64,000 bases of DNA, from assembly GCF_030297155.1 (NCBI RefSeq), contig NZ_AP028067.1, positions 2,108,001 to 2,172,000 of the forward strand, in the 5' to 3' direction. The notes beneath the pieces were generated by a model. It made no database searches. It saw only the letters and a list, made by a program, of their open reading frames with translations, and had not been told where the DNA came from. The first letter of the stretch is position 1; every line of letters starts with the position of its first letter. Shown here piece by piece: positions 29,189 to 50,609 of this stretch. This DNA comes from Vibrio sp. FE10. GTDB lineage: Bacteria > Pseudomonadota > Gammaproteobacteria > Enterobacterales > Vibrionaceae. Both the position numbers and the translations under genes were made by a program.

Positions 29189-29226
29189 GATACGCTATCT
29201 TGTGTTTAGATACCGTATATTGCTAT

Positions 29227-31490: not shown

Positions 31491-31551
31491 TATTCGCCTT
31501 TATATTGGAAGTCCAATTAAGCACTTTTAGCGCGACCAAAACCCAAAGGCA

Positions 31552-32756: not shown

Positions 32757-33104
32757 TTACAACTCTTCCCAACTTGTCAGTTCACACTTCCGATACGTCC
32801 AAAGATAATATGCGCTCATAAAAACAGCATAAAAGGCACCAGCGATGAATGATTCATACAATATGTTTGAAAAGGTCACTCCCTCTCTCGATATGCTTAG
32901 CAGCGATGTTAAAGGAAGAAAAAAGGCGAAAAACTCAACAAAGCGCACCACTACATTTCGTAGAAATGGAACATAGTAAGGTGGTCTTAACTTGATCCCA
33001 GCCTTACGCAACCATTGATGTAAAGGAGCGTTGTAGTTCCATTTTGAAATCTTAGCGGCTTGGAGTTGTTGCAATGCCCTCTCAAGCTTTCTTTCATAAC
33101 TCAT
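32757..33104 (-). CDS. small membrane protein, probably DUF6404 family
   Basis: 115 residues beginning MSYERKLERALQQLQAAKI, followed by a short amphipathic region (PLHQWLRKAGIKLRPPYYVPF) and two membrane helices (about 43-65 and 75-100). The layout fits what I recall of the Vibrio DUF6404 family. The start at 33102-33104 has AAGGAG upstream; an earlier ATG at 33131 lacks one. Function unknown. Confidence 0.7.
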   Translation of the reverse strand: MSYERKLERALQQLQAAKISKWNYNAPLHQWLRKAGIKLRPPYYVPFLRNVVVRFVEFFAFFLPLTSLLSISREGVTFSNILYESFIAGAFYAVFMSAYYLWTYRKCELTSWEEL

Positions 33105-33241
33105 GTTGGTGTGCTCCTTAAGAGTTAACATTAAACACTTGGTTGCCTAGCCTTGCTTAAAGTATCCGGTCAGATCGCTCAGCCTGACGCTTACGAACAT
33201 TGCCCTTGTGGTAACCTTTCTAAGTTAAACCACCTTTAGCG

Positions 33242-33886
33242 CTACCAACACAATTCGTATTGGTTATTTCGTTGTTTAAGCGTTAAATCAGAGAAACCAT
33301 CAACGATGAGATCAGCTAATAGTAAATCTTCTTTTTCGTGACTGGTCAAAATGGCGACCGTAAAACATCCTGCATCTTTAGCCGACTTAACCCCTGCTGG
33401 AGAGTCTTCAAACGCAACACAATTGCCCGCATCTACACCTAAGTTTTGAGCAGCTAATAAAAATGGATCTGGATGTGGTTTCCCATTAGTGACGTCTTCT
33501 GCACAAATCATATTGGCGGGAATCTGAAAACCAGATGCAAGCAAACTGGTTTCCGCTACTTTCCTAGGCCCACTGGTTGCGATAGACCATGAATGCAAAG
33601 GTATGGTTGACACAAAATCCAATGCACCATCGATTTCGGTCGCAGCATTCATAGCTTCCATTGCAATCTCTTTCACAACCGCTTCTTCTTCAGAGTTTGA
33701 GTATTTTGAGCCGACTAGCGCAAGTGTTTCACTGATTTTTCTGCCATGCACGTGGGGTAATACTTTTGAGAACTCAATGGCATTTCGTGTTGCCCATTTC
33801 TGCCAAATATTATTGATAACCTGTGTGGTATCAACAAGAGTCGCATCGACATCAAAGATAAAACCTTTACAGACAAACGTATTCAC
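33242..33886 (-). CDS. HAD-superfamily phosphatase (beta-phosphoglucomutase-like)
   Basis: 214 residues. HAD motif I is FDVDATLVDT (residues 11-20), motif II ATSGPRK (near 103), Lys in NGKPHPDPF (near 135) and motif IV VAFEDSPAGVKSA (near 157). The GKPxPDxF and EDSxxG blocks are typical of sugar-phosphate phosphatases of the YfbT/GS1 type. The usual motif-I Gly after the second Asp is Ala here. Substrate unknown. Confidence 0.9.
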   Translation of the reverse strand: MNTFVCKGFIFDVDATLVDTTQVINNIWQKWATRNAIEFSKVLPHVHGRKISETLALVGSKYSNSEEEAVVKEIAMEAMNAATEIDGALDFVSTIPLHSWSIATSGPRKVAETSLLASGFQIPANMICAEDVTNGKPHPDPFLLAAQNLGVDAGNCVAFEDSPAGVKSAKDAGCFTVAILTSHEKEDLLLADLIVDGFSDLTLKQRNNQYELCW

Positions 33887-34026
33887 TCACCTAACTCCTT
33901 AGAATTGACACTTCGATACTTAAACACAACGCAGACTAGCGCTTTATTAAAAAACTGCATCGTATAAATAGATTGCAACTTTAACCTTTCTTAGCGTCCT
34001 AGCTTGCACGTAATTGCTCTCCAACT

Positions 34027-34485
34027 TTACCTACGAACCCTCAAAAAGTTCGACCATTTGTCTTTTACTTCGGACGTCAAATCCAAGGTAAATTCATAAC
34101 CTAAATGGTTCTCGCGGGTAATCTCAAAGTCGAGATGCTTGTGAAACTGTACTGACAATTCGTTCATGCGTAACACATTACTGACCAGAACATTTGCTTG
34201 ATTGTTCTTGAGTGTCTCGGCAATTGAACGGAACAACGCAAGAAAAGCGGCCTTGCTTCGGTAATTAGGATGAACAACGAACATCGGCACAAACCATCGC
34301 CCATCACCTAAGTTCCGTAGCGTTGTGTACCCTATTAATTGGTCTTTCCTGCGATATTCGAAAAGTAGCCCTTGCTCGATGGATTCAGCTCGTGACGCTA
34401 AGTAAACTTCTCTCTCGATTGGAAACCCGGCCTCTTTCGAGATTGCCTCCAAAGTCAGTATGTCTAGTTCTAAATACTCTTCCAT
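34027..34485 (-). CDS. GNAT-like acetyltransferase
   Basis: 152 residues. A GNAT-like core is visible as IGYTTLRNLGDGRWFVPMFVVHPNYRSKAAFLALFRSI (about 50-87); the acetyl-CoA loop NYRSKAAF is atypical, lacking the second Gly. The C-terminal part (SVQFHKHLDFE) is as expected. The ATG at 34483-34485 has a strong AAGGGAG, which fixes the start; the open frame runs further upstream. Substrate unknown. Confidence 0.75.
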   Translation of the reverse strand: MEEYLELDILTLEAISKEAGFPIEREVYLASRAESIEQGLLFEYRRKDQLIGYTTLRNLGDGRWFVPMFVVHPNYRSKAAFLALFRSIAETLKNNQANVLVSNVLRMNELSVQFHKHLDFEITRENHLGYEFTLDLTSEVKDKWSNFLRVRR

Positions 34486-34588
34486 AACTCCCTTAAACCA
34501 ACGAATGCTTGAATGAATGGCTATCCGTATTAAGTCGCTACTCAATCATGCGTCACTAACGCTAAAACCCAACCCTAAAGTGCCATGT

Positions 34589-34604
34589 ATAATGAATCAA
34601 CTTA
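34589..34604. repeat. 16-bp dispersed repeat, copy 2
   Basis: Second exact copy of ATAATGAATCAACTTA (see 29173-29188), 15 bp after the stop of the next gene. Confidence 0.5.
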
Positions 34605-34619
34605 AATTATCTATTTGAG

Positions 34620-35018
34620 CTAAAACTCATCGCTCGTATCTCGCTCATCATAGTTAGGGAAGTCGATTTTCAGGAAGCCATTTTCATCGAGAGTAAATGA
34701 GACTCTCCCACGCTCTATTCCTGATTCATTCATATCAGAGCAGCCACGGAAGACCTCCCAATCAAACGAATAATTGAGCTGATACTGAATACCTTCTACG
34801 TAATGAACACTTTCGATCTGAATACCGTTCACGTTGTGAGCCATATGATCTATGTGAGAAAGGTCAGGGATCAACTTACTTTCAAAGCCACTCTTATTTT
34901 CAGTGAGGAAAACGGCCAATTCAGAGCATAGCTCCGAACCACGAGCTAAAGATTTAGACGAACTAGAAAAGATCACGTTCAATTTCTCCCGAGAACAGTG
35001 TTGGATTTGAGTATTCAC
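34620..35018 (-). CDS. hypothetical protein
   Basis: 132 residues, soluble, no signal peptide, not recognised. The C-terminal half reads as a beta-sheet domain (QIESVHYVEGIQYQLNYSFDWEVF ... RGRVSFTLDENGFLKIDFP) ending in an acidic tail. No catalytic pattern seen. No strong ribosome site before the ATG. Confidence 0.6.
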   Translation of the reverse strand: MNTQIQHCSREKLNVIFSSSSKSLARGSELCSELAVFLTENKSGFESKLIPDLSHIDHMAHNVNGIQIESVHYVEGIQYQLNYSFDWEVFRGCSDMNESGIERGRVSFTLDENGFLKIDFPNYDERDTSDEF

Positions 35019-35265
35019 GCATCATTAAAGCGAGGAAAAAATTAACATAAAATATTTTATTTCAATAACTTAAAAATAAAACCTTAAACCTAGGCTTCGT
35101 AAAACAAGTATGTAACTTGATGATTCTACATGTTTGAAACCAACAACAGGCAAGTATTAACTCATGTCTGAACAATTGTAAGTTAGGCGTTTTAAACATT
35201 AGCGATACATCTTAGATGGGCATTATCAGCTAGCTAGAACCGACTACCCGATAATTGTCATACGA

Positions 35266-36099
35266 TTAGCCGAAAAGTGTAATGGTTAAAGCTGACGCTA
35301 TTAGCCCAAATATCGATATACAGAGTCTCTTTGTTACCGTCTCATTATACTTATACCAACCAATCAAAATTGAAAAAACAGTCGAGAATCGTCTTAGCGA
35401 AGATACAAAAGCAACGTTGCCTATCGAAGCAGCTTGATAAAATGTCAGCAAAGTTAGTAGGTGAGCCAGAGCGGGGACAATTAACGAAGAAAAGTCACTT
35501 AAACTTATAGTCGATGCCCGTATTCTGATCAGAAAAGGCAAATAATATAAGAACATGACTAAGCATATGTGCGCCGTCCAATTAACAGCTCCAATCTGAA
35601 CAGAACCATCTTTATGAATGATTGAGCTAAGTGACCAAAGCAGAACGACACATATCATGCTGTTTACTGCTTTATCTTTTATTATGCTCATTAGGTTTAA
35701 ACTCTCGCCATAAAATATAAAAAAGATCGCCGAAATTATTCCTATGAATCCAAACAAGGAAGGGACTTCATTGTAAAAAACAAAGTTTAAAACTAGCTGA
35801 AATACAGGAACAAAGCATAAAAGAGGAATGACTTTGGCTAAGGATCCATTGCGCAAAGCTAAGAGATAAAATGTCATAGCAGCGGCATCAAGAGTGGCAG
35901 CCGAGAACATCATTATCACTAGATCAACATCGTAGTTCACCTTTTCGAGAATGAATATGGTGGATAGACAAATAGGACAAAGAATGAACAACATTACCGC
36001 TGTAGATTGTATTGCTGATAATCTAGATGTCGACTTTTTTAATGAGACATCCTTCACGGTTAAAAAAACAGCAGATAGAAGAGAAAATAAAACCCACAA
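35266..36099 (-). CDS. EamA/DMT-family transporter
   Basis: 277 residues with about ten membrane helices in two EamA repeats (residues about 3-130 and 150-275), the drug/metabolite-transporter layout. The start is a TTG (36097-36099) with only a weak ribosome site; no in-frame ATG is available nearby. A Crp/Fnr-like regulator lies 61 bp upstream on the same strand and probably controls it. AT-rich and oddly coded compared with the core genes, suggesting transfer. Confidence 0.82.
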   Translation of the reverse strand: MWVLFSLLSAVFLTVKDVSLKKSTSRLSAIQSTAVMLFILCPICLSTIFILEKVNYDVDLVIMMFSAATLDAAAMTFYLLALRNGSLAKVIPLLCFVPVFQLVLNFVFYNEVPSLFGFIGIISAIFFIFYGESLNLMSIIKDKAVNSMICVVLLWSLSSIIHKDGSVQIGAVNWTAHICLVMFLYYLPFLIRIRASTISLSDFSSLIVPALAHLLTLLTFYQAASIGNVAFVSSLRRFSTVFSILIGWYKYNETVTKRLCISIFGLIASALTITLFG

Positions 36100-36160
36100 A
36101 ATAGAGTTCTCTAAGTAAAGAATAGTGGTTCTATGTTCTATTGAAATTCAATGGTGTTAA

Positions 36161-36721
36161 TTAACAATTGTTAATGCGGTTTTTTATTCTTGATAAACTA
36201 ACAGGGCTTATCCCCATGTAATTAGCGATATCAACGCTTGTTAAGTGCTTGACCCAGTGGGGAAAATCATAAACTAAATGTTTATACCTTTCTTCATGCG
36301 TATTGAGCAGAAAAAAACTTTCTTTTTTTTCTTTATAAAGCAGTTGCTGTTCTAGGAGCTGAATTTTTGTGTTAACCCATTCTTGAGAATTAAGCATACT
36401 CATTGGGACTTTAATGAATTCTACTTTAGTTAATGATTCAATTTGATAGCTAGACTCTCGATTCTCTATCCAACTCGAAAAAAGTATGCAAAGGCTTTGT
36501 GGAAAATAAAACTCCTTACATCGCTCTACTCCTGAATCGGAATAATGGCAGGCCTTCAAGATACCAGAGATCAAATAGAATGCATGGGTCTGCTCTTCGC
36601 CTTGACGTAGCAATACACAAGATTCATCGACTAATGAAGTTGAAAACGTAGAAAAATAACGTTCAGGATGAGCAATACCTAGCCCTTCAAAAAATGAGCA
36701 TACGGATTCTATATTTGTCAT
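36161..36721 (-). CDS. Crp/Fnr-like transcriptional regulator
   Basis: 186 residues. Cyclic-nucleotide-binding-like domain about 20-120 (LLRQGEEQTHAFYLISGILKAC), then a C-terminal helix-turn-helix with LTSVDIANYMGISPVSLSRIKN. Organised like the regulator at 29734-30324 but clearly different in sequence. Likely co-transcribed with the EamA exporter gene that follows. Confidence 0.85.
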   Translation of the reverse strand: MTNIESVCSFFEGLGIAHPERYFSTFSTSLVDESCVLLRQGEEQTHAFYLISGILKACHYSDSGVERCKEFYFPQSLCILFSSWIENRESSYQIESLTKVEFIKVPMSMLNSQEWVNTKIQLLEQQLLYKEKKESFFLLNTHEERYKHLVYDFPHWVKHLTSVDIANYMGISPVSLSRIKNRINNC

Positions 36722-37139
36722 ATTACCTACAATATTTCCTTGAATGGTAGGCTTTGCATTACCCTACACGTAAGCCTTTCATACAGAAACGAAAGTTAAC
36801 CACAATATAGTCTAACTTGTATAGGGGCAGATCTGAGCTAGCTTGCACTTTGAGAGAGAAGTGCCACTAGTAAAACTTCGGGCCGATGAAGCCTCTGGAC
36901 AAAACCAACTTAACGTAAAAGCTCTACAGTCCCGCTTTCAGATAACTTTTTGTATCGCAAAAAGTCATAGACCACCGTTCTCAGTGGTGGTTGGGATGAC
37001 AGGGATTAGACAAAAATTTCCACCATAGAACGCTCTTGTTAGATTCGTAACAAAACGATCTTTAGCAGGATGTAGCATCACTATTACATGTTATCTGTAA
37101 TAGCAGCTGTTATGAGTAATCTGCTCTCCGAGTTCTAAA
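36722..37139. other. intergenic region, possible degraded element
   Basis: About 420 bp without a supportable gene. A hairpin, ACCACCGTTCTCAGTGGTGGT (roughly 36971-36991), is embedded in DNA (36843-37050) that looks richer in GC than its flanks and reads like a decayed element or structured RNA. No transposase remnant could be identified. Confidence 0.35.
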
Positions 37140-38015
37140 CTAATTTTCGTCTTGGAAAAGTTGCATATTACCTAATAGCCGCTCGGTCTTACCCGTCATT
37201 GTCAAAGGCATTATTCCTTCATCTGAAATCTTTTTTAGTACCAATGCTGATGGGCTTACGCCATAACAGCGAGCTTCTTCTCTAGTTTTCTTCACAATGT
37301 GTTTGTTAGCTTCGCTGTCGTAGTTATTAGGTAAAGCTCCATCAAACTCGAAGGATCCATCTAGTAGTGGTGAGTAAGCGACCAGGTTGATGTTTGGGTT
37401 CCTTTCTCTTAGTGCACTGATGATCTCGGTATCAAGACAAATTTGTACTCCCAAGTCGACTCCTTTTAGCGGTTCAATTACTGTGTGACGATACTGTGCA
37501 TAGCTAATAGGCGTTAAATCATGAGCACTAATGACTTCCTGCAGTTCTTTGATTCGGGGTAAGGAAAAATTAGAAATTCCAAGTCGCTTAACTACACCAT
37601 CGTTAATCAGGGAACTAAGTGCAGACCATGTTTCCAATAAAGGTGTCGATATATCATCAATGTGGGCATACAGAACATCAATGTAATCTGTCGATAAACG
37701 GTCAAGACATGCTTGCACTGCTCTGTCTATAGCTACTTTGCTCAAGCCTTCTGCTCTATCAAAGTTCCTACCATCAAGGGGTTGTGCGCCAATTTTTGTA
37801 TGAATTTCGATTTGTTTCCTTTCTTTAGTTCTAAGCCAGTTACCAATAACTCTTTCACTTTCTCCGCCTCTTCCTGCCCAAAATGCATAATTGTTAGCAG
37901 TGTCGATTATGGTTCCACCGTTTTCAATAAAGGTATCCATGATTTCATGAGCTTGTGATTCAGATATTGATGTCCCAAAGCCTGCAGTTCCAAGTCCTAC
38001 ATTCATTATTCGCAC
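37140..38015 (-). CDS. aldo/keto reductase
   Basis: 291 residues, TIM-barrel NAD(P)H-dependent oxidoreductase. The catalytic set is visible: Asp and Tyr in IIDTANNYAFW (near 37-47), Lys in IHTKIGAQ (near 75), His in IDVLYAHIDD (near 118). The Arg/Ser-type cofactor loop near the C-terminus is in MPLTMTGKTERLL. Substrate unknown. Divergent from a LysR-type gene, a usual regulator-target arrangement. Confidence 0.92.
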   Translation of the reverse strand: MRIMNVGLGTAGFGTSISESQAHEIMDTFIENGGTIIDTANNYAFWAGRGGESERVIGNWLRTKERKQIEIHTKIGAQPLDGRNFDRAEGLSKVAIDRAVQACLDRLSTDYIDVLYAHIDDISTPLLETWSALSSLINDGVVKRLGISNFSLPRIKELQEVISAHDLTPISYAQYRHTVIEPLKGVDLGVQICLDTEIISALRERNPNINLVAYSPLLDGSFEFDGALPNNYDSEANKHIVKKTREEARCYGVSPSALVLKKISDEGIMPLTMTGKTERLLGNMQLFQDEN

Positions 38016-38134
38016 CTCTTAACAGTTAGTTACATGTATTTTTTAAGGCAAAAAGATCAGTATGCCCTTTCTATGTTCTAAACATTACAGGACAATAGAC
38101 TTTCAGCAATAAAACGATATGCAAAGGTCTTTTC

Positions 38135-38947
38135 ATGAGTGAAATGGATTTAAACTGGAGTGATCTACAACTGTTTCTTTACGTTGCTAAGGAAGGAGGT
38201 CTATCCGCAGCCGCAAAATCAAGTCAACGCAGCCCCGCTACACTTGGTCGCAGAATGCACGCACTCGAAAAAACTCTGGGGAAAGAGTTATTTTTTCGCC
38301 ATGATCGGGGATATGAGTTGCTTGCTGCTGGAGAAAAGTTGCTAAAAGAACTAACAGCGCTGGAGTCACAAATAACAACAATTACAGGAGTGTGTTCACA
38401 AGACAATAGACCTTTAGTAAAAATCTCTGCGGGCACATGGACTACGTTATTTTTGATACAAAATATAAACCAATTTTCAGCTACTCTAGATAAAACTCTT
38501 ATACGCTTTATCTCTACAGAAAAAATATTGAATATATCCCATAGAGAGGTCGTCATAGGTATTCGGAATATCAGACCTACAGATGAATCCTTAGTTTGCC
38601 GTAAACTGAAACGAGTTGAGTTTGCTCCTTATTCAACTAAAAATTCCCCTGAAATATGGATAAAGGTATTATCAGATACCCCTTCAGGTCGTTGGCTCGA
38701 TCGTTTTGTAGGTTACAACTCGATTTGTGAAGTTAGTGAACCACGAAATAGCCTTGATCTAGCTCTTCAGAATAAAGGTATTGCACTTCTCCCGACTTTT
38801 ATTGGAGACGCACAACGTCAACTTCATCGCATAGGAAACATTATTGATGAACTGGGGCATGACCAATGGCTAGTAACACATCACGAAGATCGTTACTTAC
38901 CCGAAGTAAAGACTCTGATTAGTACGTTAGGAGAAGCTCTGAGATAA
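38135..38947 (+). CDS. LysR-family regulator, short form
   Basis: 270 residues. An N-terminal winged helix (DLQLFLYVAKEGGLSAAAKSSQRSPATLGRRMHALE) is followed by a C-terminal domain that is shorter than in usual LysR proteins (about 300). It is divergent from the aldo/keto reductase gene 120 bp away and probably regulates it. A near-perfect hairpin follows at 39042-39077. Confidence 0.88.
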   Translation: MSEMDLNWSDLQLFLYVAKEGGLSAAAKSSQRSPATLGRRMHALEKTLGKELFFRHDRGYELLAAGEKLLKELTALESQITTITGVCSQDNRPLVKISAGTWTTLFLIQNINQFSATLDKTLIRFISTEKILNISHREVVIGIRNIRPTDESLVCRKLKRVEFAPYSTKNSPEIWIKVLSDTPSGRWLDRFVGYNSICEVSEPRNSLDLALQNKGIALLPTFIGDAQRQLHRIGNIIDELGHDQWLVTHHEDRYLPEVKTLISTLGEALR

Positions 38948-39041
38948 GACTTGCATAGATACGCAGTAGTAAGTGGTTTTTATTATGCACTAATGAAGTG
39001 AGGATAATCTGGTTTCTATCAGTTCTGAGAAGCTTTGGAGC

Positions 39042-39077
39042 AGAAACGATTTAGGGTTATCGATCTAAACCGTTTCT
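39042..39077. terminator. hairpin after the LysR-type gene
   Basis: AGAAACGATTTAG (39042-39054) and CTAAACCGTTTCT (39065-39077) pair with one mismatch around a 10-base loop. There is no strong T run, so it is a candidate terminator only. Confidence 0.4.
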
Positions 39078-39129
39078 AGCAGATTAGGAAAAGTATTTTG
39101 AAAAATTAAACGTTTGTTATATATCTTAT

Positions 39130-39546
39130 TTAAATCTTATCCGCAAAGTAAGCCATGATTTCTTCTGTAGTCATTTCCTTGGTCTCGTTGGAAAAGCAAT
39201 AATAGCTCGGGCGCATATCAATAAAGTATTGCATGTCCATTTTCAAACCCTCTAAGTTTGGAAAGAGACCTACTGGCATATTATATTCACCTGTTTCTTT
39301 TAACTTATAAAATAGATGCGTACCACACTCAACACAGAACCCACGAGAAGCCCAAGATGAAGACTTATACATTTTTACTTTGTTTTCACCCTCGATTTTC
39401 ACCTGAGTTCCACATTTGACTGCGAAAAATGGTGCTCCTCCCCAAGTTCGGCACGACTGGCAATGACAAACAGTGAAGCTAGGGTTGATGTTTTCTGCGG
39501 TAATTTTTACAGAACCACAAAGACAGCTAGTCTCTGAATAAGACAT
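39130..39546 (-). CDS. GFA-family (CENP-V/GFA) zinc protein
   Basis: 138 residues with the GFA zinc-binding Cys set: CLCGSVKI (8-15), CHCQSC (about 28-33) and CVECGTHLF (about 77-85). The family takes its name from a glutathione/formaldehyde-active enzyme, but most members have unknown substrates. It is the first of two GFA proteins in the window (also 49390-49797). It lies 51 bp downstream of a VOC-family gene. Confidence 0.9.
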   Translation of the reverse strand: MSYSETSCLCGSVKITAENINPSFTVCHCQSCRTWGGAPFFAVKCGTQVKIEGENKVKMYKSSSWASRGFCVECGTHLFYKLKETGEYNMPVGLFPNLEGLKMDMQYFIDMRPSYYCFSNETKEMTTEEIMAYFADKI

Positions 39547-39597
39547 TAAATTTCTCCTAAACTGATAAAAAATTTTTAGGCATAAAAGGTTCTGAGC

Positions 39598-39966
39598 CTA
39601 CATTATGACTGCTTCAATTTTGTTTCCATCCAGATCTCGAATAAATGCAGCATAATAGGTTTCACCATACTCTGGCCGAAAACCCGGTTTACCTTCGCAT
39701 TTACCACCTAGTCCAATTGCAGTGGCATAGAATTGTTCAACAGACTCTTTAGAAGGGGCATTGAAAGCTATATGTAAACCATTACTTGGAGTCGCTTTTC
39801 CTTCACAAGGACTACCAACCCAAAACTCAAAGTTTTCACCATAAGCAGCAGCAAGATTTTCTATATAGTGAGTACGCTTTATGGACAATATAGACAGAAC
39901 CGAATCGTAAAACTTAACGGCTCTTACTACATCAGAAGTACCAATTGAGACGTGATTTAAAATCAT
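39598..39966 (-). CDS. VOC-family protein (glyoxalase/dioxygenase fold)
   Basis: 122 residues, one vicinal-oxygen-chelate module: NHVSIGTSDVVRAVKFYDSVL at the start with the first metal His at residue 5, GLHIAFNAPSKESVEQFY in the middle, and YYAAFIRDLDGNKIEAVIM at the end. Substrate unknown. It probably shares a transcript with the GFA-family gene. Confidence 0.9.
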   Translation of the reverse strand: MILNHVSIGTSDVVRAVKFYDSVLSILSIKRTHYIENLAAAYGENFEFWVGSPCEGKATPSNGLHIAFNAPSKESVEQFYATAIGLGGKCEGKPGFRPEYGETYYAAFIRDLDGNKIEAVIM

Positions 39967-40217
39967 TTGAAGTCCTTTTTATTGTTCAAGATAATAAGCT
40001 TGCAAGTCCGGAAGATGTTTATCGCATTCTAACAAGAACAACAAATACTGTATATAAAAACAGTATTTGTAAATATTAGTATGGGAGTGCAAATTTAATA
40101 ACTCAATCAGATAAGCTTTATTAAGGCAAAAGCTCATTAACAGAATGTGGATGAGTAAAAGGTCTAACAAATAATGGGGTATAAATGCGTTAGCTGATAT
40201 CAAGCTAGCATTGTGCT

Positions 40218-40694
40218 CTATGTCTTTATTGGATGGAGCTTAAGGCGTTCGGATAACTCCCATAAAGCTATTCGATTTGAATCATACTTGAGAAGCTTGT
40301 TCGCTTCAGATGCCTTACACCAACGAAACTCTGTGTGTTCCGAAGACAACTGTGGTTCACTCGAAAATAGCGCTGAGAATGAATATTCTGGTATCACATA
40401 AGGGTGCTCGCTCCATTTTTCATGACCAGAATAGAACACTCTAGGTAACATACACATAGAATCTAGCTGAACCCATTTAATACCAGTCAACGAAGTTTCT
40501 TCATACAATTCTCTTTTTGCTGCATCAAGCAAAGACTCTTGATCTTCGCCACCGCCAGAAATTGCCTGCCATTCACCATTGTCTGTTCGGCAAGCAATCA
40601 AGAAGATGGGCTCTGATGTTTCAAATTTATATGGAAATATTAGTACCTGAAATGGTGCTCTCATCGGGTTGGCTCCACTATTATCATGCATCAA
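40218..40694 (-). CDS. Nudix hydrolase
   Basis: 158 residues with a complete Nudix box, GGGEDQESLLDAAKRELYEE (about 47-66) continuing TSLTG. The family hydrolyses nucleoside diphosphates linked to another moiety; this shape (pyrophosphohydrolase) is common among dihydroneopterin- or nucleotide-cleaning members. Alternative starts are at residues 2 and 11; I cannot decide from ribosome sites. It precedes the 109-bp repeat at 40782. Confidence 0.9.
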   Translation of the reverse strand: MMHDNSGANPMRAPFQVLIFPYKFETSEPIFLIACRTDNGEWQAISGGGEDQESLLDAAKRELYEETSLTGIKWVQLDSMCMLPRVFYSGHEKWSEHPYVIPEYSFSALFSSEPQLSSEHTEFRWCKASEANKLLKYDSNRIALWELSERLKLHPIKT

Positions 40695-40781
40695 TAGATA
40701 CTAATGGCATTAGGAGAAGTTGGGCAATTATCCGACCAGATTATTCTCTAATTTGTGGCGTGAACTCATAAAGGAATACGA

Positions 40782-40890
40782 ATTACCTAGATTGAAGCAT
40801 AACCCTTTTGACCACGTCATGAACGGCAAGGTTGAGAGGGCTTTGGCGATCGACAAGACGCATGCAGGACACAAGATTCAGATCGATCCT
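40782..40890. repeat. 109-bp direct repeat, copy 1: detached 3' end of a LysR gene
   Basis: Identical to 44755-44863 except for one base (C at 40879, T at 44852, a synonymous Leu codon change). The copy encodes on the minus strand the last 36 codons of the LysR gene whose intact version begins at 45637. It has no start of its own, so it is a remnant. Both copies lie in the same orientation and flank 3.9 kb of DNA. Confidence 0.93.
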
Positions 40891-40891
40891 T

Positions 40892-40916
40892 AGAAGGCGT
40901 TTATTCAACACCTTCT
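40892..40916. terminator. hairpin at the left junction of the 3.9-kb module
   Basis: AGAAGGCGT (40892-40900) pairs with ACACCTTCT (40908-40916) with one mismatch. It lies 69 bp after the stop of the dehalogenase-like gene and could terminate the module's operon. Confidence 0.4.
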
Positions 40917-40985
40917 TATGTAGTGACACTTATTGTAAGTCTACTGCTTTTAAGAGCTCTTTTAGTGCCGCGCGTTTATCGAGAG

Positions 40986-41894
40986 TTAGTTTTCTAAGCC
41001 AAATGCAGCCAATGCATTTTGCGCAACCTCAATGCCATACTCTTGAACGAAATGACCGGCATCGGCAATCTTCATCGGTTCTGGGCAACCTTTAATAAAG
41101 GTGCGTAGGTACTCCATTGGTCCCTCACCTAACGCGGTATCTTTCATACCAATAGCCATATAACTTTGGCCACTCCATTGTTTAGACCAGAATTGACGAG
41201 CACGTATACCATGCTCGACACCATCCATTGATGGATCTACAGGAACTATCGCCGGGAAACGTCTTGCTCCAGCTTTGTAGCTGTTATCAGGGAACGGCGC
41301 GTCATAAGCGAGTACATCAAGCAGATTAACTTGCGGACCTGCATCACAAGCAAAGATACCTCCAACCGGAATTTCGGGGGCATTAGCACAGAAATCACGC
41401 CACTGATAAAACCCTTCAGGCGCCGTTTCTCCCACGGATATTGCAGTATTCATTACAATGAGGTTTTTAAATCTGTCTTGCATATCCATTGGAATAGTTA
41501 ATCCTAGGATGCCTCCCCAGTCTTGGCAGACCAAGGTGATATTTTTCAGATCAAGACGCTCGATAAAGCGAAGTAAACTATCTCGATGGAAGTCAAAGGT
41601 GTAGACCGATTCATCAACGGGTTTATCTGAACGGCCAAAACCAAATAGATCAGGGGCTACAACACGATGCCCTGCCTCGGTAAATACCGGAATCATCTTG
41701 CGGTATAAATAGCTCCATGACGGCATGCCGTGTAAGCAAAGAAAGGTATTTTCAGCCGTCGCATCACCTTCATCAATGTAAGCCATACGCAGAGAATCAA
41801 ACCCCTCCAAATCATCAACATAATTTGGTTGATATGGGAAAGCAGGCAAAATAGAAAAGCGTTCATCTGGTGTTCTTAGTGCGTTAATCGTCAT
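40986..41894 (-). CDS. alpha/beta hydrolase, haloalkane dehalogenase family
   Basis: 302 residues, alpha/beta-hydrolase fold of the DhlA-type haloalkane dehalogenases. HGMPSWSYLYRKM gives the oxyanion region, the nucleophile is Asp125 in LVCQDWGG with the halide-binding Trp126 next to it, and the base His is in KIADAGHFVQEYG near residue 284. Known members replace a carbon-halogen bond with OH; the actual substrate here is unknown. It is the last gene of a four-gene minus-strand set (small membrane protein, SDR and quinone reductase upstream). Confidence 0.9.
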   Translation of the reverse strand: MTINALRTPDERFSILPAFPYQPNYVDDLEGFDSLRMAYIDEGDATAENTFLCLHGMPSWSYLYRKMIPVFTEAGHRVVAPDLFGFGRSDKPVDESVYTFDFHRDSLLRFIERLDLKNITLVCQDWGGILGLTIPMDMQDRFKNLIVMNTAISVGETAPEGFYQWRDFCANAPEIPVGGIFACDAGPQVNLLDVLAYDAPFPDNSYKAGARRFPAIVPVDPSMDGVEHGIRARQFWSKQWSGQSYMAIGMKDTALGEGPMEYLRTFIKGCPEPMKIADAGHFVQEYGIEVAQNALAAFGLEN

Positions 41895-41948
41895 AATTTT
41901 TCTCTTAATATTTAGGGTATAGATGGATATAAAATACAGATATCTTGC

Positions 41949-42338
41949 TTAACGTTGATTCGGTGAGCCACCTAAAAGCAATCGCTTAAAAGGCAAGCCA
42001 GAGGCCTTAACACTACCGATGAAATAAATAGCAGCAACAATAAGGTCCATTACTCCAATAACAACAAAAGTAAGGGGAGCCACGCCTAATACCCCGGCAT
42101 AAGCAACAACTAAAAAGCCAACACAACGCACTAACCCACCCCATACAATAATCGATGAACGCGTTTTGAAATCGGCCGTTGACCAAAGCAAGGCAACGCC
42201 AGTGAAGATCAAAAAGGCCCCTAATGTCACCGCTATAACCAGCGTGTTTGGGTTTGGATTTACCAGCTCTGGGATCATCATCCCCAGCCCAATAAGAAAG
42301 TTGAACCATGCGGTCAATTTTACAAATGATTTAAACAT
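41949..42338 (-). CDS. small four-helix membrane protein (DUF4345-like)
   Basis: 129 residues, four membrane helices (about 5-22, 33-52, 62-82 and 87-108). Layout and composition recall the DUF4345 family. It lies 54 bp before the dehalogenase-like gene and 92 bp after the SDR gene, so it is probably part of the same module. Function unknown. Confidence 0.7.
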   Translation of the reverse strand: MFKSFVKLTAWFNFLIGLGMMIPELVNPNPNTLVIAVTLGAFLIFTGVALLWSTADFKTRSSIIVWGGLVRCVGFLVVAYAGVLGVAPLTFVVIGVMDLIVAAIYFIGSVKASGLPFKRLLLGGSPNQR

Positions 42339-42430
42339 GACTTATCCCAATTCATAGATTCATAGGTTTATTGAGGCTGGTTTCTAAATGGTCGTGTTTT
42401 AGAAACCAGAGTGCACTGTATCGTTAACCG

Positions 42431-43171
42431 TTAGAATTCTTGTACAGTCGGGCGTAATACGATCTCGTTAACATCGACATCAGCAGGTTGTTCAATCACA
42501 TAAGCGACAGCATTAGCGATAGACGTCGCTGAAATGGCATCTTTATACACCTCGTTTACAAATTGAGAGGTCGTTGCATCTGAACTGCCATGTTTGAGTT
42601 CAGAATCAATGAGTCCAGGTGAGATAACGGTTGTGCGAATATTACGACCCACTTCCATACGTAGTCCTTCACTGATCGCACGAACAGCAAATTTAGTGCC
42701 TGCATACACACTGCTCGCTGGCGAAACTTTATGGCCCGCTACAGAAGCAAGGTTGATGAAGTGTCCTGTTTCTTGTTGCTCAAACACAGGAAGCGCGGCA
42801 GCAATACCATTGAGCACACCTTTGATATTCACATCGATGGTGTCGTTCCACTCTTGCACTTTCAGTGCACTTAAAGGAGAAAGCGGCATAATACCAGCGT
42901 TATTGATCATCACATCTGCGCGACCAAACGTCGTTACGGCTAAATCCACCAATGCTTTCACACTCTCAGCTTTAGTCACATCTGTCGCTAACGCTACTGC
43001 ATGTCCATTCTCATTTTTAATATCCGCAACAATCGCGTTCAGTTTTTCAACTCGGCGAGCACCCAGTACGACACTTGCACCTTGAGAAGCTAGCTTTCTC
43101 GCCATAGCTTCACCTAGTCCACTACTCGCACCTGTGATCACAATGACTTTGTTTTCAATATTGGTATTCAT
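42431..43171 (-). CDS. short-chain dehydrogenase/reductase
   Basis: 246 residues, classical SDR. NAD(P)-binding ITGASSGLGEAMA at 12-24, NNAG at 90-93, catalytic Ser143, Tyr156 and Lys160 (YAGTK), and the proline-glycine motif SPGLID near 188. The GARR end of strand 2 suggests NADP preference. GGAATAAATC precedes the ATG. Probably acts with the other oxidoreductase genes of the module; substrate unknown. Confidence 0.94.
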   Translation of the reverse strand: MNTNIENKVIVITGASSGLGEAMARKLASQGASVVLGARRVEKLNAIVADIKNENGHAVALATDVTKAESVKALVDLAVTTFGRADVMINNAGIMPLSPLSALKVQEWNDTIDVNIKGVLNGIAAALPVFEQQETGHFINLASVAGHKVSPASSVYAGTKFAVRAISEGLRMEVGRNIRTTVISPGLIDSELKHGSSDATTSQFVNEVYKDAISATSIANAVAYVIEQPADVDVNEIVLRPTVQEF

Positions 43172-43220
43172 GATTTATTCCTAATGTCTTTCATTTATTT
43201 CGGTTTGTGTTGGACGGAGG

Positions 43221-43793
43221 TTATGCCGCTAAGGTTTTTTCCAAAGCTATTCTCTCGATAAGTCGACATGCATGTTCATTTGCAATATTAGCCGCTCTAT
43301 CACGTTCTGCTCGGTTCTCTACGGTTGGGTTATATGACACACCATATGAAATCTCTGGTTTAAGGAAAATCATACCTGTCGCACTCGCAAGGCGATAGAA
43401 AGGCTTAAGGTAATCTTCAACAGCATAAAGGTGAGCACCTGTCGCTGAATAAAGCTCTTCTCTCCCGCCCACAGTGGTGGAAAGTAACAATTGCTTTCCT
43501 TTCAAGTGGTCAGCATCAGGGCCATAGGCAAATGAATGGGTCAGTACCGTATCCATCCACTCTTTTAATAGTGATGGCACACCAAACCAATAAAACGGGA
43601 ATTGCAGTACGATGACATCAGTATTAAGCAATGCTTGCTGCTCTACTTCTACGTCGACAATACGGTTTGGGTACATCTTGTATAACTCACGTACCTCAAC
43701 CGAGGTTGTATCGTTTAGAGCATCAAGAACAATTTTGTTTCCGATTGAGCCATTTTCCACATCGGGATGAGCAAAAATAACAGTGGTCTTCAT
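43221..43793 (-). CDS. NAD(P)H:quinone oxidoreductase, flavodoxin-2 fold
   Basis: 190 residues of the MdaB/KefF/NQO family. FMN-binding pieces: VIFAHPDVENGSIGN at the start, QFPFYWFGVPSLLKEWMDTVLTHSFAYG (about 73-100) and LLSTTVGGREELYSATG. Such enzymes reduce quinones or electrophiles with two electrons. It is the first gene after the operator-bearing spacer and divergent from the TetR gene, so it is the likely repressed promoter's first product. Confidence 0.92.
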   Translation of the reverse strand: MKTTVIFAHPDVENGSIGNKIVLDALNDTTSVEVRELYKMYPNRIVDVEVEQQALLNTDVIVLQFPFYWFGVPSLLKEWMDTVLTHSFAYGPDADHLKGKQLLLSTTVGGREELYSATGAHLYAVEDYLKPFYRLASATGMIFLKPEISYGVSYNPTVENRAERDRAANIANEHACRLIERIALEKTLAA

Positions 43794-43843
43794 AATTAAT
43801 TCCTACGTTTACATTTTGGTGTGATTAACTAATACATACATTA

Positions 43844-43936
43844 TGTATCGATCGTTACACTTTAAGTTGCGTGCATTTTGTATCGATCATTACAGAATGT
43901 CAATAGGCCAATTGACATTTTGTATCGATTACTACA
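43844..43936. promoter_or_regulatory. three operator-like repeats between quinone reductase and TetR genes
   Basis: Three 16-base copies of TGTATCGAT(C/T)(G/A)(T/C)TACA-like sequence, at 43844-43859, 43879-43894 and 43921-43936. Each is an inverted TGTA...TACA with a shared TATCGAT core. Spacings are 35 and 42 bp. Position between divergent genes beside a TetR regulator makes them its probable binding sites. Confidence 0.75.
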
Positions 43937-43976
43937 AAATTATGTAAACAAGGTTATTTAGAAGAAGAGAACATTG

Positions 43977-44585
43977 ATGGCAGGACGAAAACGAATATTT
44001 GATAAAGATGTTGCGTTAGATAAAGCAATGCGCACATTTTGGGGGAACGGTTATTCAGGAACTTCGATCTCTCACTTAACATCAGAAATTGGGATAAATT
44101 CACCTAGCCTGTATGCTGCATTTGGCAATAAAGATCAGTTATTTAAAGATGTTCTAGTGCATTATTCAACACAATACGCAGCTCCCCATTACTATCACCT
44201 CACCGCTTCTTCTGGCGCGAGCCTTAAAGAAAGGCTGAGAGCTTGCTTCTATGGACTCATTGAATTGTTCACAGATAATGAGACACCACTTGGGTGCTTG
44301 TTGATAAAAAGTTTGAATGAATCAGATAGCGTTGCCTTTCCAGAGGAAGCAAAAACTTACTTAAGAGATGTTGGGATAAAAACAAAGTCGACATTAATTG
44401 CTTTAATTGATTCAGAGATTAACTCCGAAGAATTACCTAAAAATACGAGTGTCGAGCTCTTGGTCGAGTATCTGTTGTCCGTTAGTTACGGATTAGCGAT
44501 ACAAGCCCGAACCGGCCAACCAAAAGAAGCTTTGAATGAAATAATGGACTACGCGTTGAACACGCTTCCATACAATGACAAGTAA
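43977..44585 (+). CDS. TetR-family transcriptional repressor
   Basis: 202 residues. N-terminal helix-turn-helix GTSISHLTSEIGINSPSLYAAFGNKDQLF (about 26-54), then an all-helical ligand domain of the AcrR/YxaF-like type. The ATG at 43977 is chosen over a TTG three bases before. Divergent from the quinone reductase operon, with three matching palindromes in the 183-bp spacer. It likely represses the operon and itself until an electrophile or related ligand binds; the ligand is unknown. Confidence 0.92.
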   Translation: MAGRKRIFDKDVALDKAMRTFWGNGYSGTSISHLTSEIGINSPSLYAAFGNKDQLFKDVLVHYSTQYAAPHYYHLTASSGASLKERLRACFYGLIELFTDNETPLGCLLIKSLNESDSVAFPEEAKTYLRDVGIKTKSTLIALIDSEINSEELPKNTSVELLVEYLLSVSYGLAIQARTGQPKEALNEIMDYALNTLPYNDK

Positions 44586-44754
44586 ATGGAATAGCACACC
44601 CATTAACGTTCCCTTGAATACAACTGCCTGATAGAGAATAGAGCTACCTCCATGTGTAATCATCTTTTACGTATTGATAATTATGAGAAAAGGTAATTCA
44701 GATTGACCTAGAGGAACGCGATAAATCACCTACCATCGCTGGAATGAGGCATGC

Positions 44755-44863
44755 ATTACCTAGATTGAAGCATAACCCTTTTGACCACGTCATGAACGGC
44801 AAGGTTGAGAGGGCTTTGGCGATCGACAAGACGCATGCAGGACACAAGATTTAGATCGATCCT
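44755..44863. repeat. 109-bp direct repeat, copy 2: 3' end of the intact LysR gene
   Basis: Partner of 40782-40890 (108 of 109 bases identical). Here it is the native C-terminal coding part plus stop codon of the LysR gene, beginning one base after its stop at the left. Confidence 0.93.
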
Positions 44864-45637
44864 GAGTTCTTGGGGTGGCTCTATGGTGTAAAGCGAAGCG
44901 TCCTTCCAACTATCGCTTAATACGCAGGCGTGTTCACCCTGCTCTAGGATTTGCCTCGCAACTGAAAAATTGTCCACCGTGATACTGATGTGCGGCTCAA
45001 TCCCACTACTTTTCAACATTTCTAAATATCGGTAACGATCTTCATTCCAGCCTTGGCTTCGGATCTTGATAAAAGGCAATTTCAACGCCTCTTCCCATGT
45101 TAATTGCCCCAATGACTTTGAAACAGCGACCACCAGTTGATCGGCCATGATGCGTTTCTGGAAGATATTCGTACTGCGGTCTTCAGTTAGAAAGTGCACA
45201 CCTAAGGTAATGTCACCCTGTTCTAATTTTTGCTCTGTATCGGATGCCCAAGTCTTCAGCTCTATTTGCGCTTTGGGAAACGTTTTCGAGAGTTCCCTAA
45301 ATAGATCAACACCTGAAAATTCCAATGTATAGGCGAAAAAAGCAAGGGTGATAGGCCCATCATAGCTGGCAGAATCGAATGTCACTGGTGAGGTAGCGGA
45401 GTGCATCAAGGACAAGGCGTGTTCAATATCGGGCAAAATAGATTTGCTATAATGTGTTGGCCTTAGTCCTTTCGTGGTGCGTTCGAAAAGTGGGAGCCCC
45501 AATTGCTCTCTTAGCTTGGTCATTTGCTTGCTGACTGCGCTCTCAGAGATCCCCAGTTTCATCCCCGCCCTTTTAAGGCTGTTCGACTGACACAACAATA
45601 CAAAGGTACGCAGCAAATTCAGGTCTATACTTTCCAT
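44756..45637 (-). CDS. LysR-family transcriptional regulator
   Basis: 293 residues. N-terminal winged helix: MESIDLNLLRTFVLLCQSNS ... KLGISESAVSKQMTKLREQ; C-terminal substrate-binding-like domain with VVAVSKSLGQLTWEEALKLP. The open frame extends to 45730, but the ATG at 45635-45637 is where family homology starts. Divergent from the DUF1254 protein gene, 116 bp away, its probable target. ACTTTCCATTTGGG occurs twice upstream (45630 and 45660), possible binding repeats. Its 3' end is duplicated at 40782-40890. Confidence 0.92.
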   Translation of the reverse strand: MESIDLNLLRTFVLLCQSNSLKRAGMKLGISESAVSKQMTKLREQLGLPLFERTTKGLRPTHYSKSILPDIEHALSLMHSATSPVTFDSASYDGPITLAFFAYTLEFSGVDLFRELSKTFPKAQIELKTWASDTEQKLEQGDITLGVHFLTEDRSTNIFQKRIMADQLVVAVSKSLGQLTWEEALKLPFIKIRSQGWNEDRYRYLEMLKSSGIEPHISITVDNFSVARQILEQGEHACVLSDSWKDASLYTIEPPQELRIDLNLVSCMRLVDRQSPLNLAVHDVVKRVMLQSR

Positions 45638-45678
45638 TTGGGCAAGTCCTATTTTCCATACTTTCCATTTGGGAAGTA
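45630..45678. promoter_or_regulatory. paired 14-bp direct repeat upstream of the LysR gene
   Basis: ACTTTCCATTTGGG recurs about 30 bp apart, once overlapping the LysR start and once within the divergent spacer. Candidate autoregulation site. Confidence 0.35.
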
Positions 45679-45753
45679 TAAAGTAACCTCTATCGGCAGA
45701 GCAAATAATACTCTTCCAAATGACATTCACTTTGAAATATAAAGGTCGCTACT

Positions 45754-46731
45754 ATGAAAAAGCTATTCCCCCTTACTGCTGTCGCTTTATTCTCAACCAG
45801 CGTTTTTGCAGCGCCAACTATCGTCACGGAAGATAATTTTGCTCAGGCATACACCAACATGCGTCTCGGCGCGGTCGTAGAGAAAGCCGGTGGTATCAAT
45901 ACATTCTTTGAGATGCCAGTACCGAGCAGCGTTCCTGAAGAACAGTTCGTTGTACGAATGAATCGAGACACTTTTTACTCCGTTTCTGTCATCGATATGT
46001 CGAACGATGATGTTTACGTGACGGTTCCAGAAACTGACCAATATGTGTCACTGCAAGTCGTGGACGAAAACCACGAGACTCAGCCAATGATCTACGGTTC
46101 AGGTCGTCATAAAATCAGCGCAAAAACCGACCACGCATTTGTCATTGTCCGTGCTCTTGAAGATGACGCACGCCGTAACCTGAAAATTGAAACCGGCAGT
46201 GAGAAACCGTTTGAAGTAAAAGAGTGGGATATGGCGTCGTTCAGTGCCACGGATAAAGCTGGCAACATCGATTTCAGTGACGGATATGACCAATCAAAAG
46301 CGTTTGGTAACAAAGAAAGCGGCCAAACTGATTATATGAATTATGTTGGCGCAGCTGGCGGTTGGGGTGGCGCGATGGTCGAAGACAATATCTACCAAAC
46401 CAGCCAGTACTTCGATGCGAATGCATGTTATGAGACGACTTTCAAAGATCCAAAGGCAGGTTCATTCTGGTCAGCGACGGTATATAACGCTGATGGTCGA
46501 ATGTTTAACGATAAAGCCAATATTTCGAGTGAAATGGCACCCGTTATGAATAGCGATGGAACCTACACTCTCCGCTTTGGGTGTGAAGGTCAGCCAAACA
46601 ATATCCCAACGATGGAAGGTAATAAGACCGGAAAATTTAATGTTCTTGTGCGCCATTACAATCCTAGCGAGCCCGTAAGCAAGGGCGAGAAAGGTTACAA
46701 TCCAGCAGTTATGATTAAGAAAGCAGGCTAA
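45754..46731 (+). CDS. exported DUF1254-domain protein
   Basis: 325 residues with a 19-residue signal peptide (cleavage after TSVFA). The mature part has DUF1254 (about 25-130, NRDTFYSVSVIDMSNDDVYVTVPE) and DUF1214-like sequence at the C-terminus (SFWSATVYNADGRMF ... GKFNVLVRHYNPSEP). The family is widespread, periplasmic and without known function. Divergent from the LysR regulator; terminator follows. Confidence 0.9.
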   Translation: MKKLFPLTAVALFSTSVFAAPTIVTEDNFAQAYTNMRLGAVVEKAGGINTFFEMPVPSSVPEEQFVVRMNRDTFYSVSVIDMSNDDVYVTVPETDQYVSLQVVDENHETQPMIYGSGRHKISAKTDHAFVIVRALEDDARRNLKIETGSEKPFEVKEWDMASFSATDKAGNIDFSDGYDQSKAFGNKESGQTDYMNYVGAAGGWGGAMVEDNIYQTSQYFDANACYETTFKDPKAGSFWSATVYNADGRMFNDKANISSEMAPVMNSDGTYTLRFGCEGQPNNIPTMEGNKTGKFNVLVRHYNPSEPVSKGEKGYNPAVMIKKAG

Positions 46732-46790
46732 CTTAAGTCATCAAATTGATGCTAGCCAACGCAAGTGAACGAACATAACTCATGAAAAGC

Positions 46791-46840
46791 GACGTGATAC
46801 CGAGTAAGCAAAGTGCTTCAAAGGTATCGCGTCTTTTTTT
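46791..46840 (+). terminator. terminator of the DUF1254 gene
   Basis: GACGTGATACC (46791-46801) pairs with GGTATCGCGTC (46823-46833), one G-U, with an inner AAGCA/TGCTT stem, then seven T. Confidence 0.85.
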
Positions 46841-47073
46841 TATGACTGTTTTCAAATAAGAACAGGTAAAGCCAATGTGTGTGTTTCCTTTTCAATTGAT
46901 GGCTTTAAATGAATCGCTTTCAATGAAAAGGAATGGGGCAAAATTAGGTAAGCTGAGATTTCACAAACTTGAAGATAGACAAAAACAGCTTACAGAGTAT
47001 TGCATTAGGAGCTAGGCAGCACTGCCGCCTGATGTAAACCATCAAATCATCAGCCAGCGCTGCTAAACAAAAA

Positions 47074-47355
47074 CTATAGAACGGTAACGCCTTCAATCTC
47101 GATCACTGAGTTAGCGTTCGCTCTCTCGATTATTTTTAATAAGGTTGTTTGAATGAGCTCATTGTCTCTGATTTCAGTTTCACATGAGAAGCGCTCTTCT
47201 TGGACACTGTCGCCCTCGCCTAACGTGAATTGAACAGCCACTTCAGTCGCGCATTCTTTGGTAGCGCCATAGTACGCTAGAGTGATTTTAGGGTAACCGT
47301 TGAATCCCTTTTTGACCTGTTTAGCGATACGTTTTTTAGCTTTATCCAAGTTCAT
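47074..47355 (-). CDS. small hypothetical protein
   Basis: 93 residues. Basic N-terminus (MNLDKAKKRIAKQVKKG), then a beta-rich domain (KITLAYYGATKECATEVAVQFTLGEGDSVQEERFSCETE) and a C-terminal helix. Not recognised. ACAGGAAGT before the ATG makes it credible. Confidence 0.65.
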   Translation of the reverse strand: MNLDKAKKRIAKQVKKGFNGYPKITLAYYGATKECATEVAVQFTLGEGDSVQEERFSCETEIRDNELIQTTLLKIIERANANSVIEIEGVTVL

Positions 47356-47511
47356 ACTACTTCCTGTTTAATAGTGTTCCTAAGACCAATATAACGCCCT
47401 ATTCAATCGTAAACCAACACAAATCTGAACCTTACGTAAAACACCTTCACTGTAAAATTATTAAGGGATGAAAATGCCAAGTAATAGGAATTAACTTCCA
47501 GTGCTTAGCTA

Positions 47512-48018
47512 TCAATCTAACTCTGCGTTAAACCTCTTTTCTAACCACATAGAACTGATGTACTGCCCGTTTTTCTTTGCGTACTCTTTGAATACGCCGA
47601 CTTCTCGAAAACCAAAACTCTTGTGTAACGCAATTGAAGCATCATTTGGTAACGCGACACCAGACAAGGCTCTATGAACACCGTGGGTGCTAATGGATGA
47701 AAACAACTGAGAATACAATTTCGAACCTAAGCCTTTACCTGTCGCTTCTTCCGCCAGATAAACGGTGACTTCGACAGTATCTTCAAATGCTGACATCGCT
47801 CTGTACTGTTGAGAACAGGCGAAACCTAATAACGCACCATTTTCTGTCGCGACATAAAGCTGATGTTTACTGTTGTTTGAAAACTGAGCGAACCACTGTT
47901 GGCGATTTTCCAACGTAAATTCCTCTTCTTCAAATCGAGCATTGGTGTGTTTAATATAGAAGTTGAAGATATCCGTGATGCCTGCAATATCAGGTAATGC
48001 CCCTACTCTGATTTCCAT
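47512..48018 (-). CDS. GNAT acetyltransferase, phosphinothricin-acetyltransferase type
   Basis: 168 residues. MEIRVGALPDIAGITDIFNFYIKHTNARFEEEEFT is the typical start of the Pat/YncA branch. The acetyl-CoA loop is EATGKGLGSKL (near 92-102), and NDASIALHKSFGFREVGVFKEYAKKNG matches the family C-terminus. Homologues acetylate methionine sulfone/sulfoximine or related amines; the substrate here is unknown. Confidence 0.92.
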   Translation of the reverse strand: MEIRVGALPDIAGITDIFNFYIKHTNARFEEEEFTLENRQQWFAQFSNNSKHQLYVATENGALLGFACSQQYRAMSAFEDTVEVTVYLAEEATGKGLGSKLYSQLFSSISTHGVHRALSGVALPNDASIALHKSFGFREVGVFKEYAKKNGQYISSMWLEKRFNAELD

Positions 48019-48117
48019 GTAATGTCCTTTTTAATTGGTGCACTAAACACTAAAACCAATACATAGAAAATTGCCAAATATGTTGAGTTATCTTTGGAGT
48101 ATTAGTTTTGCGTATTC

Positions 48118-50353: not shown

Positions 50354-50508
50354 TTTAAAATCCTACTGACTATAAACCCCCACTTGTGGGCGAATGCATT
50401 ATTACGCAGTAAGCCGTGAAAAGCCTAGTCCTTTACGTTGTAAGTACCGATCTTACTTCGAACTCCACATACCACGCATTAGGAATCATTTTCGAATACT
50501 TTCGACTC

Positions 50509-50609
50509 ACTTTTCTAACAGACGACACTGGTATTCTGCGACATATTTTGGCTCTGCTGCATGTTCAAGGAAGCGTTCATGAAGAAAAAACAATGCATCC
50601 ACTGGCATT
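50509..50609 (-). pseudogene. detached 3' end of a paralogue of the unknown gene at 54552
   Basis: On the minus strand this reads DALFFLHERFLEHAAEPKYV ... QCRLLEK then stop, matching the C-terminus of the 296-residue protein encoded at 54552-55442 (DALCFLHERFPEHALELKHI ... QCRLLEK). DNA identity is roughly three quarters by eye, with most changes silent or conservative; a TAG lies directly upstream in frame. It is therefore a truncated, older copy separated from its relative by the kinase-regulator-transporter genes. Confidence 0.85.

Follow-up and report, generated by a model that had tools for sequence, protein, structure and literature searches.

The window analyzed here is a stretch of 64,000 nucleotides of Vibrio sp. 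FE10 (contig NZ_AP028067.1), in which a dehalogenase operon and a divergent TetR-family regulator gene lie between two direct copies of the 3' end of a LysR-family regulator gene. The copies, at 40782-40893 and 44755-44866, were detected in a repeat search of the window and are 112 nt long with 98% identity. They have the same strand and orientation and consist of the LysR stop codon and the coding stretch inward of it. The right copy belongs to the intact LysR gene, of which the left copy has nothing but this end. The features of the locus are as follows.

40218..40694, minus strand: Nudix hydrolase, left flank (PF00293, 44 bits)
40782..40893, minus strand: truncated second LysR 3' end (last 36 codons and stop), from the direct repeat and its reading frame; the sole other copy in the genome
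40986..41894, minus strand: haloalkane dehalogenase-family hydrolase (NF002043, 340 bits, cut-off 265; 7avr, 503 bits; 1edb, 345 bits)
41949..42338, minus strand: small membrane protein by our own reading, with no Pfam or NCBIfam family; relatives adjoin the dehalogenase in other genera
42431..43171, minus strand: short-chain dehydrogenase (SDR; PF00106, 180 bits)
43221..43793, minus strand: flavodoxin-fold oxidoreductase, quinone reductase-like (KefF/KefG-like; PF02525, flavodoxin_2, 138 bits; NF002044, 155 bits, under the cut-off of 210)
43839..43940, no strand: three 25-nt repeats from the repeat search, near-palindromic by our reading, overlapping two divergent promoter-like sites
43977..44585, plus strand: TetR-family regulator, divergent (PF00440, 43 bits)
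44755..44866, minus strand: matching 3' end within the intact LysR gene (repeat search)
44756..45730, minus strand: LysR-family regulator, intact (PF00126 and PF03466; relatives of at least 78% in 16 other genomes of the genus)
45754..46731, plus strand: DUF1254/DUF1214 protein (Pfam) that travels with LysR and adjoins it in 16 of 16 loci fetched from other genomes

The gene content agrees with the sequence-only reading that preceded this analysis: Pfam recovers an alpha/beta hydrolase, the SDR, the flavodoxin_2-type quinone reductase and the TetR and LysR regulators, NCBIfam places the hydrolase with the haloalkane dehalogenases, and both leave the membrane protein without a family. The hydrolase is, as judged by a score above the family-model cut-off and by alignment near full length with 1edb and 7avr, a member of the haloalkane dehalogenase family. 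Motifs QDWGG, GMKD and GHFVQE are conserved, residues D125, W126, W165, D252 and H281 are invariant in a separate comparison of three sequences, and the DW, D and H align with their counterparts in 1edb. We take these residues to be the nucleophile Asp, the halide-binding Trp pair, and the catalytic Asp and His. What distinguishes the enzyme here from 1edb and 7avr is its operon setting, alongside SDR, flavodoxin-fold and TetR genes. Between the oxidoreductase and TetR genes, a promoter-like TTGACA-17-CAAAAT occurs on both strands, although such matches are weak (3 sites versus a shuffle mean of 13.9). Repeats and promoter-like sites in this position suggest that the 25-nt repeats are probably TetR operators.

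No mobility gene is recognized in the module, in line with the earlier claim. Pfam finds no mobility family among the five module proteins, and by our reading of the open reading frames (ORFs) of at least 70 aa, no transposase or integrase is recognized, with none between the repeats or beside the operon.

The duplication of the LysR end had been described as 109 bp long with a single silent difference. It is real, and genome-wide BLAST matches the repeat at two places only (E of 5e-53 and 3e-50, the latter placing the second copy beyond chance), but its length is 112 nt and the copies differ at two positions (C at 40879 versus T at 44852; T at 40891 versus G at 44864), both silent in the LysR reading frame (all Leu). 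Such repeats are rare in this genome. A survey of 1.264 of 6.0 Mb for direct repeats of at least 50 bp, at least 88% identity and at most 30 kb apart, with the low-complexity filter on, found five local families, including the LysR-end pair. The other four are a tRNA-Val 3'-end pair, an attC-like pair, a 345-bp perfect tandem array and two tRNA-Gly genes. Three of these four have an evident cause, and the tRNA-Val island, like the LysR-flanked module, has no recognized integrase.

Distribution and divergence of the operon and its neighbors

Across 227 genomes of the genus, the LysR gene is matched in 23, over at least 848 bp in 17 (window genome included) and by short matches only in six. Surroundings of 19 kb were fetched from 15 other genomes, together with the whole 6.3-kb contig of G071, a strain of the same species. 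The operon lies beside LysR in G071 only and is absent there in 15 of the 16 other LysR-bearing genomes, a distribution that identifies it on comparative grounds as an acquired block rather than a module that, with both repeats, is common to all relatives. The contig of G071 spans window positions 42484-48030 at 97.5% identity and joins TetR to LysR. Matches of at least 2 kb to module DNA are confined to the window genome, G071 and G235, and any match is found in 34 of 227 (two candidates scored per genome). Sixteen of the 227 genomes contain the LysR tail; in the 15 besides the window genome, a single copy is found in each (three candidates scored per genome), leaving the window genome as the only one with a second tail. 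No second full LysR gene is found in other genomes (two candidates scored per genome).

The core of the operon recurs more widely. A scan of genome contigs for the dehalogenase found 91 relatives, and 80 loci were kept; neighboring genes were called at E of at most 1e-15 with an identity floor of 38% (genes other than the dehalogenase), and contig ends truncate some of the loci. TetR, membrane protein, dehalogenase and SDR genes occur together in nine of the 80 loci (L127-L134 and L139, with a partial SDR in L139), which belong to V. superstes, two Psychromonas, Pseudoalteromonas, Psychrobacter, Marinomonas, Amphritea, Paraglaciecola and Methylophaga. Two further loci have three of the four core genes, without the SDR, and L206 has TetR and dehalogenase only. 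The flavodoxin-fold gene is absent from all 12 of these loci and adjoins the dehalogenase in three others (39-43%). The recurrence of the core across genera therefore indicates a horizontally spread, mostly marine operon. By our reading of ORFs, the related block of Amphritea opalescens is bounded by 645-bp copies resembling an insertion sequence, and the block of Marinomonas flavescens has the same 74 bp of a group II intron-type ORF on either side. These repeats look like pieces of mobile elements and thus do not support a shared homology mechanism. Loci L135 and L140 also have repeats around the block.

Within the species, the operon and the LysR side differ in divergence. Relative to G071, the operon coding sequence (SDR, oxidoreductase, TetR) differs at 10 of 1870 sites (0.53%), whereas the LysR side (LysR body, DUF1254, a 93-aa ORF and GNAT) differs at 78 of 2631 (2.96%; Fisher p of 5e-10, sites treated as independent). 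Third codon positions show the same contrast (6 of 623 for the operon and 65 of 914 for the LysR side, whole LysR counted), so protein constraint is not the cause. The lower divergence of the operon points to sharing between the two lineages that is more recent than that of the LysR side, and by this measure the operon coding DNA is recently shared within the species.

The age of the duplication was estimated with rates from the G071 comparison, on the assumption that the left copy evolves neutrally. Any two of the left copy, the right copy and the G071 tail differ at 2 of 112 positions. Approximately 5.6 differences between the repeats are expected if they were duplicated at the G071 split (probability of two or fewer, 0.08) and 0.8 at the common ancestor of the operon (probability of two or more, 0.2). 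A duplication younger than the G071 split is thereby favored, not proven. The earlier claim of a recent event is weakly supported by two differences where 5.6 are expected at that split. One site (T40891) sets the left copy, which shares its T with G071, apart from the resident LysR with its G; an origin of the distal left copy in another strain would predict this pattern.

The LysR gene and its DUF1254 neighbor form a pair that varies in location. In seven of eight near-complete relatives (two to five contigs), the pair is on C2, the second-largest contig, taken from its size as chromosome 2; in G022, it is on C1, and in the remaining eight LysR-bearing relatives, it is on draft contigs. The window, with its pair, sits on C1. 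On the C2 of the window genome, the sequences that flank the pair of G234 are only 13 bp apart (L116, 10130 / 10144), an empty site relative to G234. The chromosome-1 region at 24150-50764 has a different filling in eight other-species relatives fetched, some only in part. Therefore, with the pair on C2 in most relatives and a matching empty site on its own C2, the window genome carries the pair in a chromosome-1 hotspot. The direction of the move is inferred from the majority of relatives. Several different surroundings of the pair are seen, and the break falls close to the LysR stop.

A terminator-like palindrome is present on both sides of the pair in several relatives (L116, about 10144-10178; L012, L041 and others), and one copy marks the empty site on the C2 of the window genome. 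We considered the pair as a repeat-bounded mobile unit and rejected this, as the apparent direct repeats on its flanks in several relatives resemble, by our reading, a common terminator hairpin. Gene pairs of this kind could relocate through recombination at shared terminators. In several relatives (L012, L040 and L041), also by our reading, tandem copies of a 15-16-bp unit located at the LysR stop codon extend past the gene. Short repeats at 36812-36913, 50505-50603 and 54550-54648 recur in many relatives, and the latter two are 82% alike.

Origin of the duplicated LysR end

We suggest that the locus is most likely not a new mobile element but a scar left by ordinary uptake of DNA through homology. 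The geometry of such a scar is present: a partial direct duplication of a resident gene, intact on one side and truncated on the other, with a foreign operon between. The LysR-DUF1254 pair would first have come to occupy the chromosome-1 hotspot, as comparison with relatives that have it on C2 suggests. The horizontally spread dehalogenase operon, with TetR, came to lie beside LysR in this species, and comparison with G071 indicates that its coding DNA was recently exchanged. Incoming DNA may have carried the operon and part of LysR, which would have served as the homologous anchor. The other end would then have been joined illegitimately, either directly or by closure of a circle followed by a single crossover, with the joint at 40893/40894, which would leave a shortened LysR 3' end across the operon from the intact gene. 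A scar of this specific kind, formed in an integrase-free chromosomal hotspot by homologous uptake with one illegitimate end or by a circle and a single crossover, has in our judgment about an even chance of being correct; the mechanism is plausible but unproven and ordinary in kind. The repeats are predicted to be long enough for a RecA deletion that would restore an intact LysR and its old neighbor. Excision between the repeats would leave an intact LysR, and nothing marks them as a dedicated recombination site. The module may move by homology, but each of the 15 other tail-bearing genomes has a single copy.

Precedents exist for such events. PMC3240628 describes linear DNA in E. coli that is partly degraded, recircularized and, through one crossover, produces target-gene duplications; a duplication PCR product was obtained in 56 of 60 clones, with 109-950 bp in 14 sequenced. 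Among experimental cases, this is the closest match. A partial duplication of the target-gene end flanks foreign DNA, and the process there is RecA-dependent with no integrase, but it was a laboratory conjugation with selection, whereas the event here would be natural. The hotspots of PMC5635113 are alike in being variable accessory regions without recognized mobility genes that turn over by homologous exchange. They differ in that double recombination occurs in core genes, whereas here an accessory gene would be the anchor and a partial duplication is left over. For pcp-cfr(C) in Campylobacter, PMC10770853 reports transfer of a 3,678-bp circle and its insertion by homologous recombination. 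It likewise carries a shared gene and has homology-mediated insertion, but its circles were demonstrated by inverse PCR and transfer, whereas a circle of the module here would be hypothetical. The last of these sources and PMC3240628 indicate that homology-only movement is known in kind; with the three sources together, the movement of genes by homology, which the sequence-only reading called unusual, is not without precedent.

Several observations weigh against uptake through the LysR tail. The sequence-only reading had likened the layout to a single crossover of a circle that carries the LysR 3' end. The geometry fits and the operon is acquired, but the step in divergence from G071, the sole available donor proxy for an identity-switch test, falls at the TetR stop and not in the tail, which lies ∼170 bp away. 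Had a G071-like donor recombined by a single crossover within the tail, the gap between TetR and LysR should be donor-like, yet this gap has 10 substitutions in 169 bp, seven within 44588-44608, plus two indel bases. This simplest story is therefore not confirmed. The left junction in G071 is also unseen, with no match in that strain to window positions 36000-42483. The similarity of its left contig to the window ends at 35174, with unlike DNA starting at 35175. Linker-like sequence at the ends of its contigs suggests that the missing part is possibly an assembly gap or a true absence. Most of 21750-35034 is common to G071 and the window; the hotspot is thus not wholly different within the species. 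No donor genome was found, and the empty site that had been anticipated, with Nudix directly next to an intact LysR, was not found in relatives. Nudix relatives (67-81%) occur in seven of 15 other genomes compared, always on a different contig from LysR, and the fetched LysR surroundings have no Nudix match. Finally, true homology-facilitated illegitimate recombination would be expected to cause a deletion, not a duplication (PMC3240628).

Other explanations of the left copy are each less probable than uptake. It is possible, at clearly lower probability, that the left copy is the remnant of a once complete second LysR, derived from a tandem duplication or an imported Nudix-LysR block and then mostly deleted. 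Two insertions in one hotspot are conceivable given the several contexts of the pair with a break near the LysR stop, and with G071-unlike DNA from 35175, the left flank and tail were possibly imported together. However, an extra deletion ending at the operon is needed, and no other genome has two LysR genes (two candidates scored) or a second tail (three scored). We find it unlikely that 112 bp of the LysR end were copied locally as filler during the repair of a break left of the operon. Copies that are less than 4 kb apart, on the same strand and nearly identical would suit templated duplication, but the start of the copy at the stop codon is left unexplained and no independent sign of repair synthesis is seen.

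Because the copied block runs from within the gene exactly to the stop codon, the LysR 3' end can also be viewed as the attachment site of a recombinase supplied elsewhere, in the manner of islands that restore the 3' end of the gene they target; an 85-bp 3'-end duplication also bounds the tRNA-Val island of this genome, in which no integrase was read. This is improbable, since the LysR end is not reused as a target (second copy in none of the 15 other tail-bearing genomes), no integrase is recognized in or beside the operon, and 15 other-species loci have no recurrent cargo here. Similarly improbable is a broader conjecture that ends of accessory genes, such as the LysR tail, are portable landing pads and that operons circulate among Vibrio strains as RecA-made circles. 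If so, circles with one gene end would re-enter wherever that gene is, and hotspot turnover would be homology-driven without recombinases. An assembly artefact, raised as a concern at the outset, is very improbable. The left junction is known from the window genome alone, but the repeat is short and its copies are not identical (two positions), the contig extends over 3.8 Mb, and the TetR-LysR junction is found independently in G071.

If uptake is correct, the locus represents a legible natural case of an operon entering a chromosome without a mobility gene, with a truncated gene end as evidence. It is useful as a datable example because a relative, G071, dates the sharing of the operon as recent, and more strains of the species would make the turnover of integrase-free hotspots amenable to a base-level test. 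A dehalogenase operon that includes a TetR gene and has spread among marine bacteria is documented as well. A literature search found nothing on this locus, and we make no wider claim.

Other element classes and other repeats in the genome

Known classes of elements were considered and rejected. An integrase-bearing island is not supported, as no integrase lies between the repeats and the target is not reused in the 15 other tail genomes, nor is a composite transposon, as the flanking repeat is LysR coding sequence and not insertion sequences. Single-gene blocks and short shared repeats near 36824, 39034, 40110 and 50509 had suggested attC sites. However, the best integron-integrase match in the genome scores 70.8 bits versus a curated cut-off of 265, attC-like repeats are elsewhere, the repeat at 36812-36913 is without a paired attC core order by our reading, and 26000-55000 has no Rfam match at gathering scores. 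In a distant plasmid search, 180 records matched but none covered 80% of the query, so a plasmid origin is not supported; the best 20 of the 180 all match the SDR stretch (12% of the query, ∼65%), and one other record has 80-90% identity. Merodiploid formation by transformation (PMC3784515) is documented for duplications of ∼100-900 kb, which is not this scale.

Elsewhere in the genome, a 9.3-kb island at C1:1700688-1710096 (L207, 688-10096) lies between 85-bp direct repeats of a tRNA-Val 3' end plus terminator-like sequence. It has full-length matches to the plasmid-defense proteins DdmD (2725 bits) and DdmE (1573 bits) along with HNH, methyltransferase and WYL genes, and no integrase was recognized in it. 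At C1:1812407-1814493 (L212), a pair of 102-bp attC/VCR-like repeats surrounds transposase-like ORFs and a small gene by our reading, in a genome without an integron integrase above cut-off. The tandem array at C1:2025836-2038969 (L223 and L224) extends over 13 kb, with ∼38 copies of its 345-bp unit that are 100% identical.

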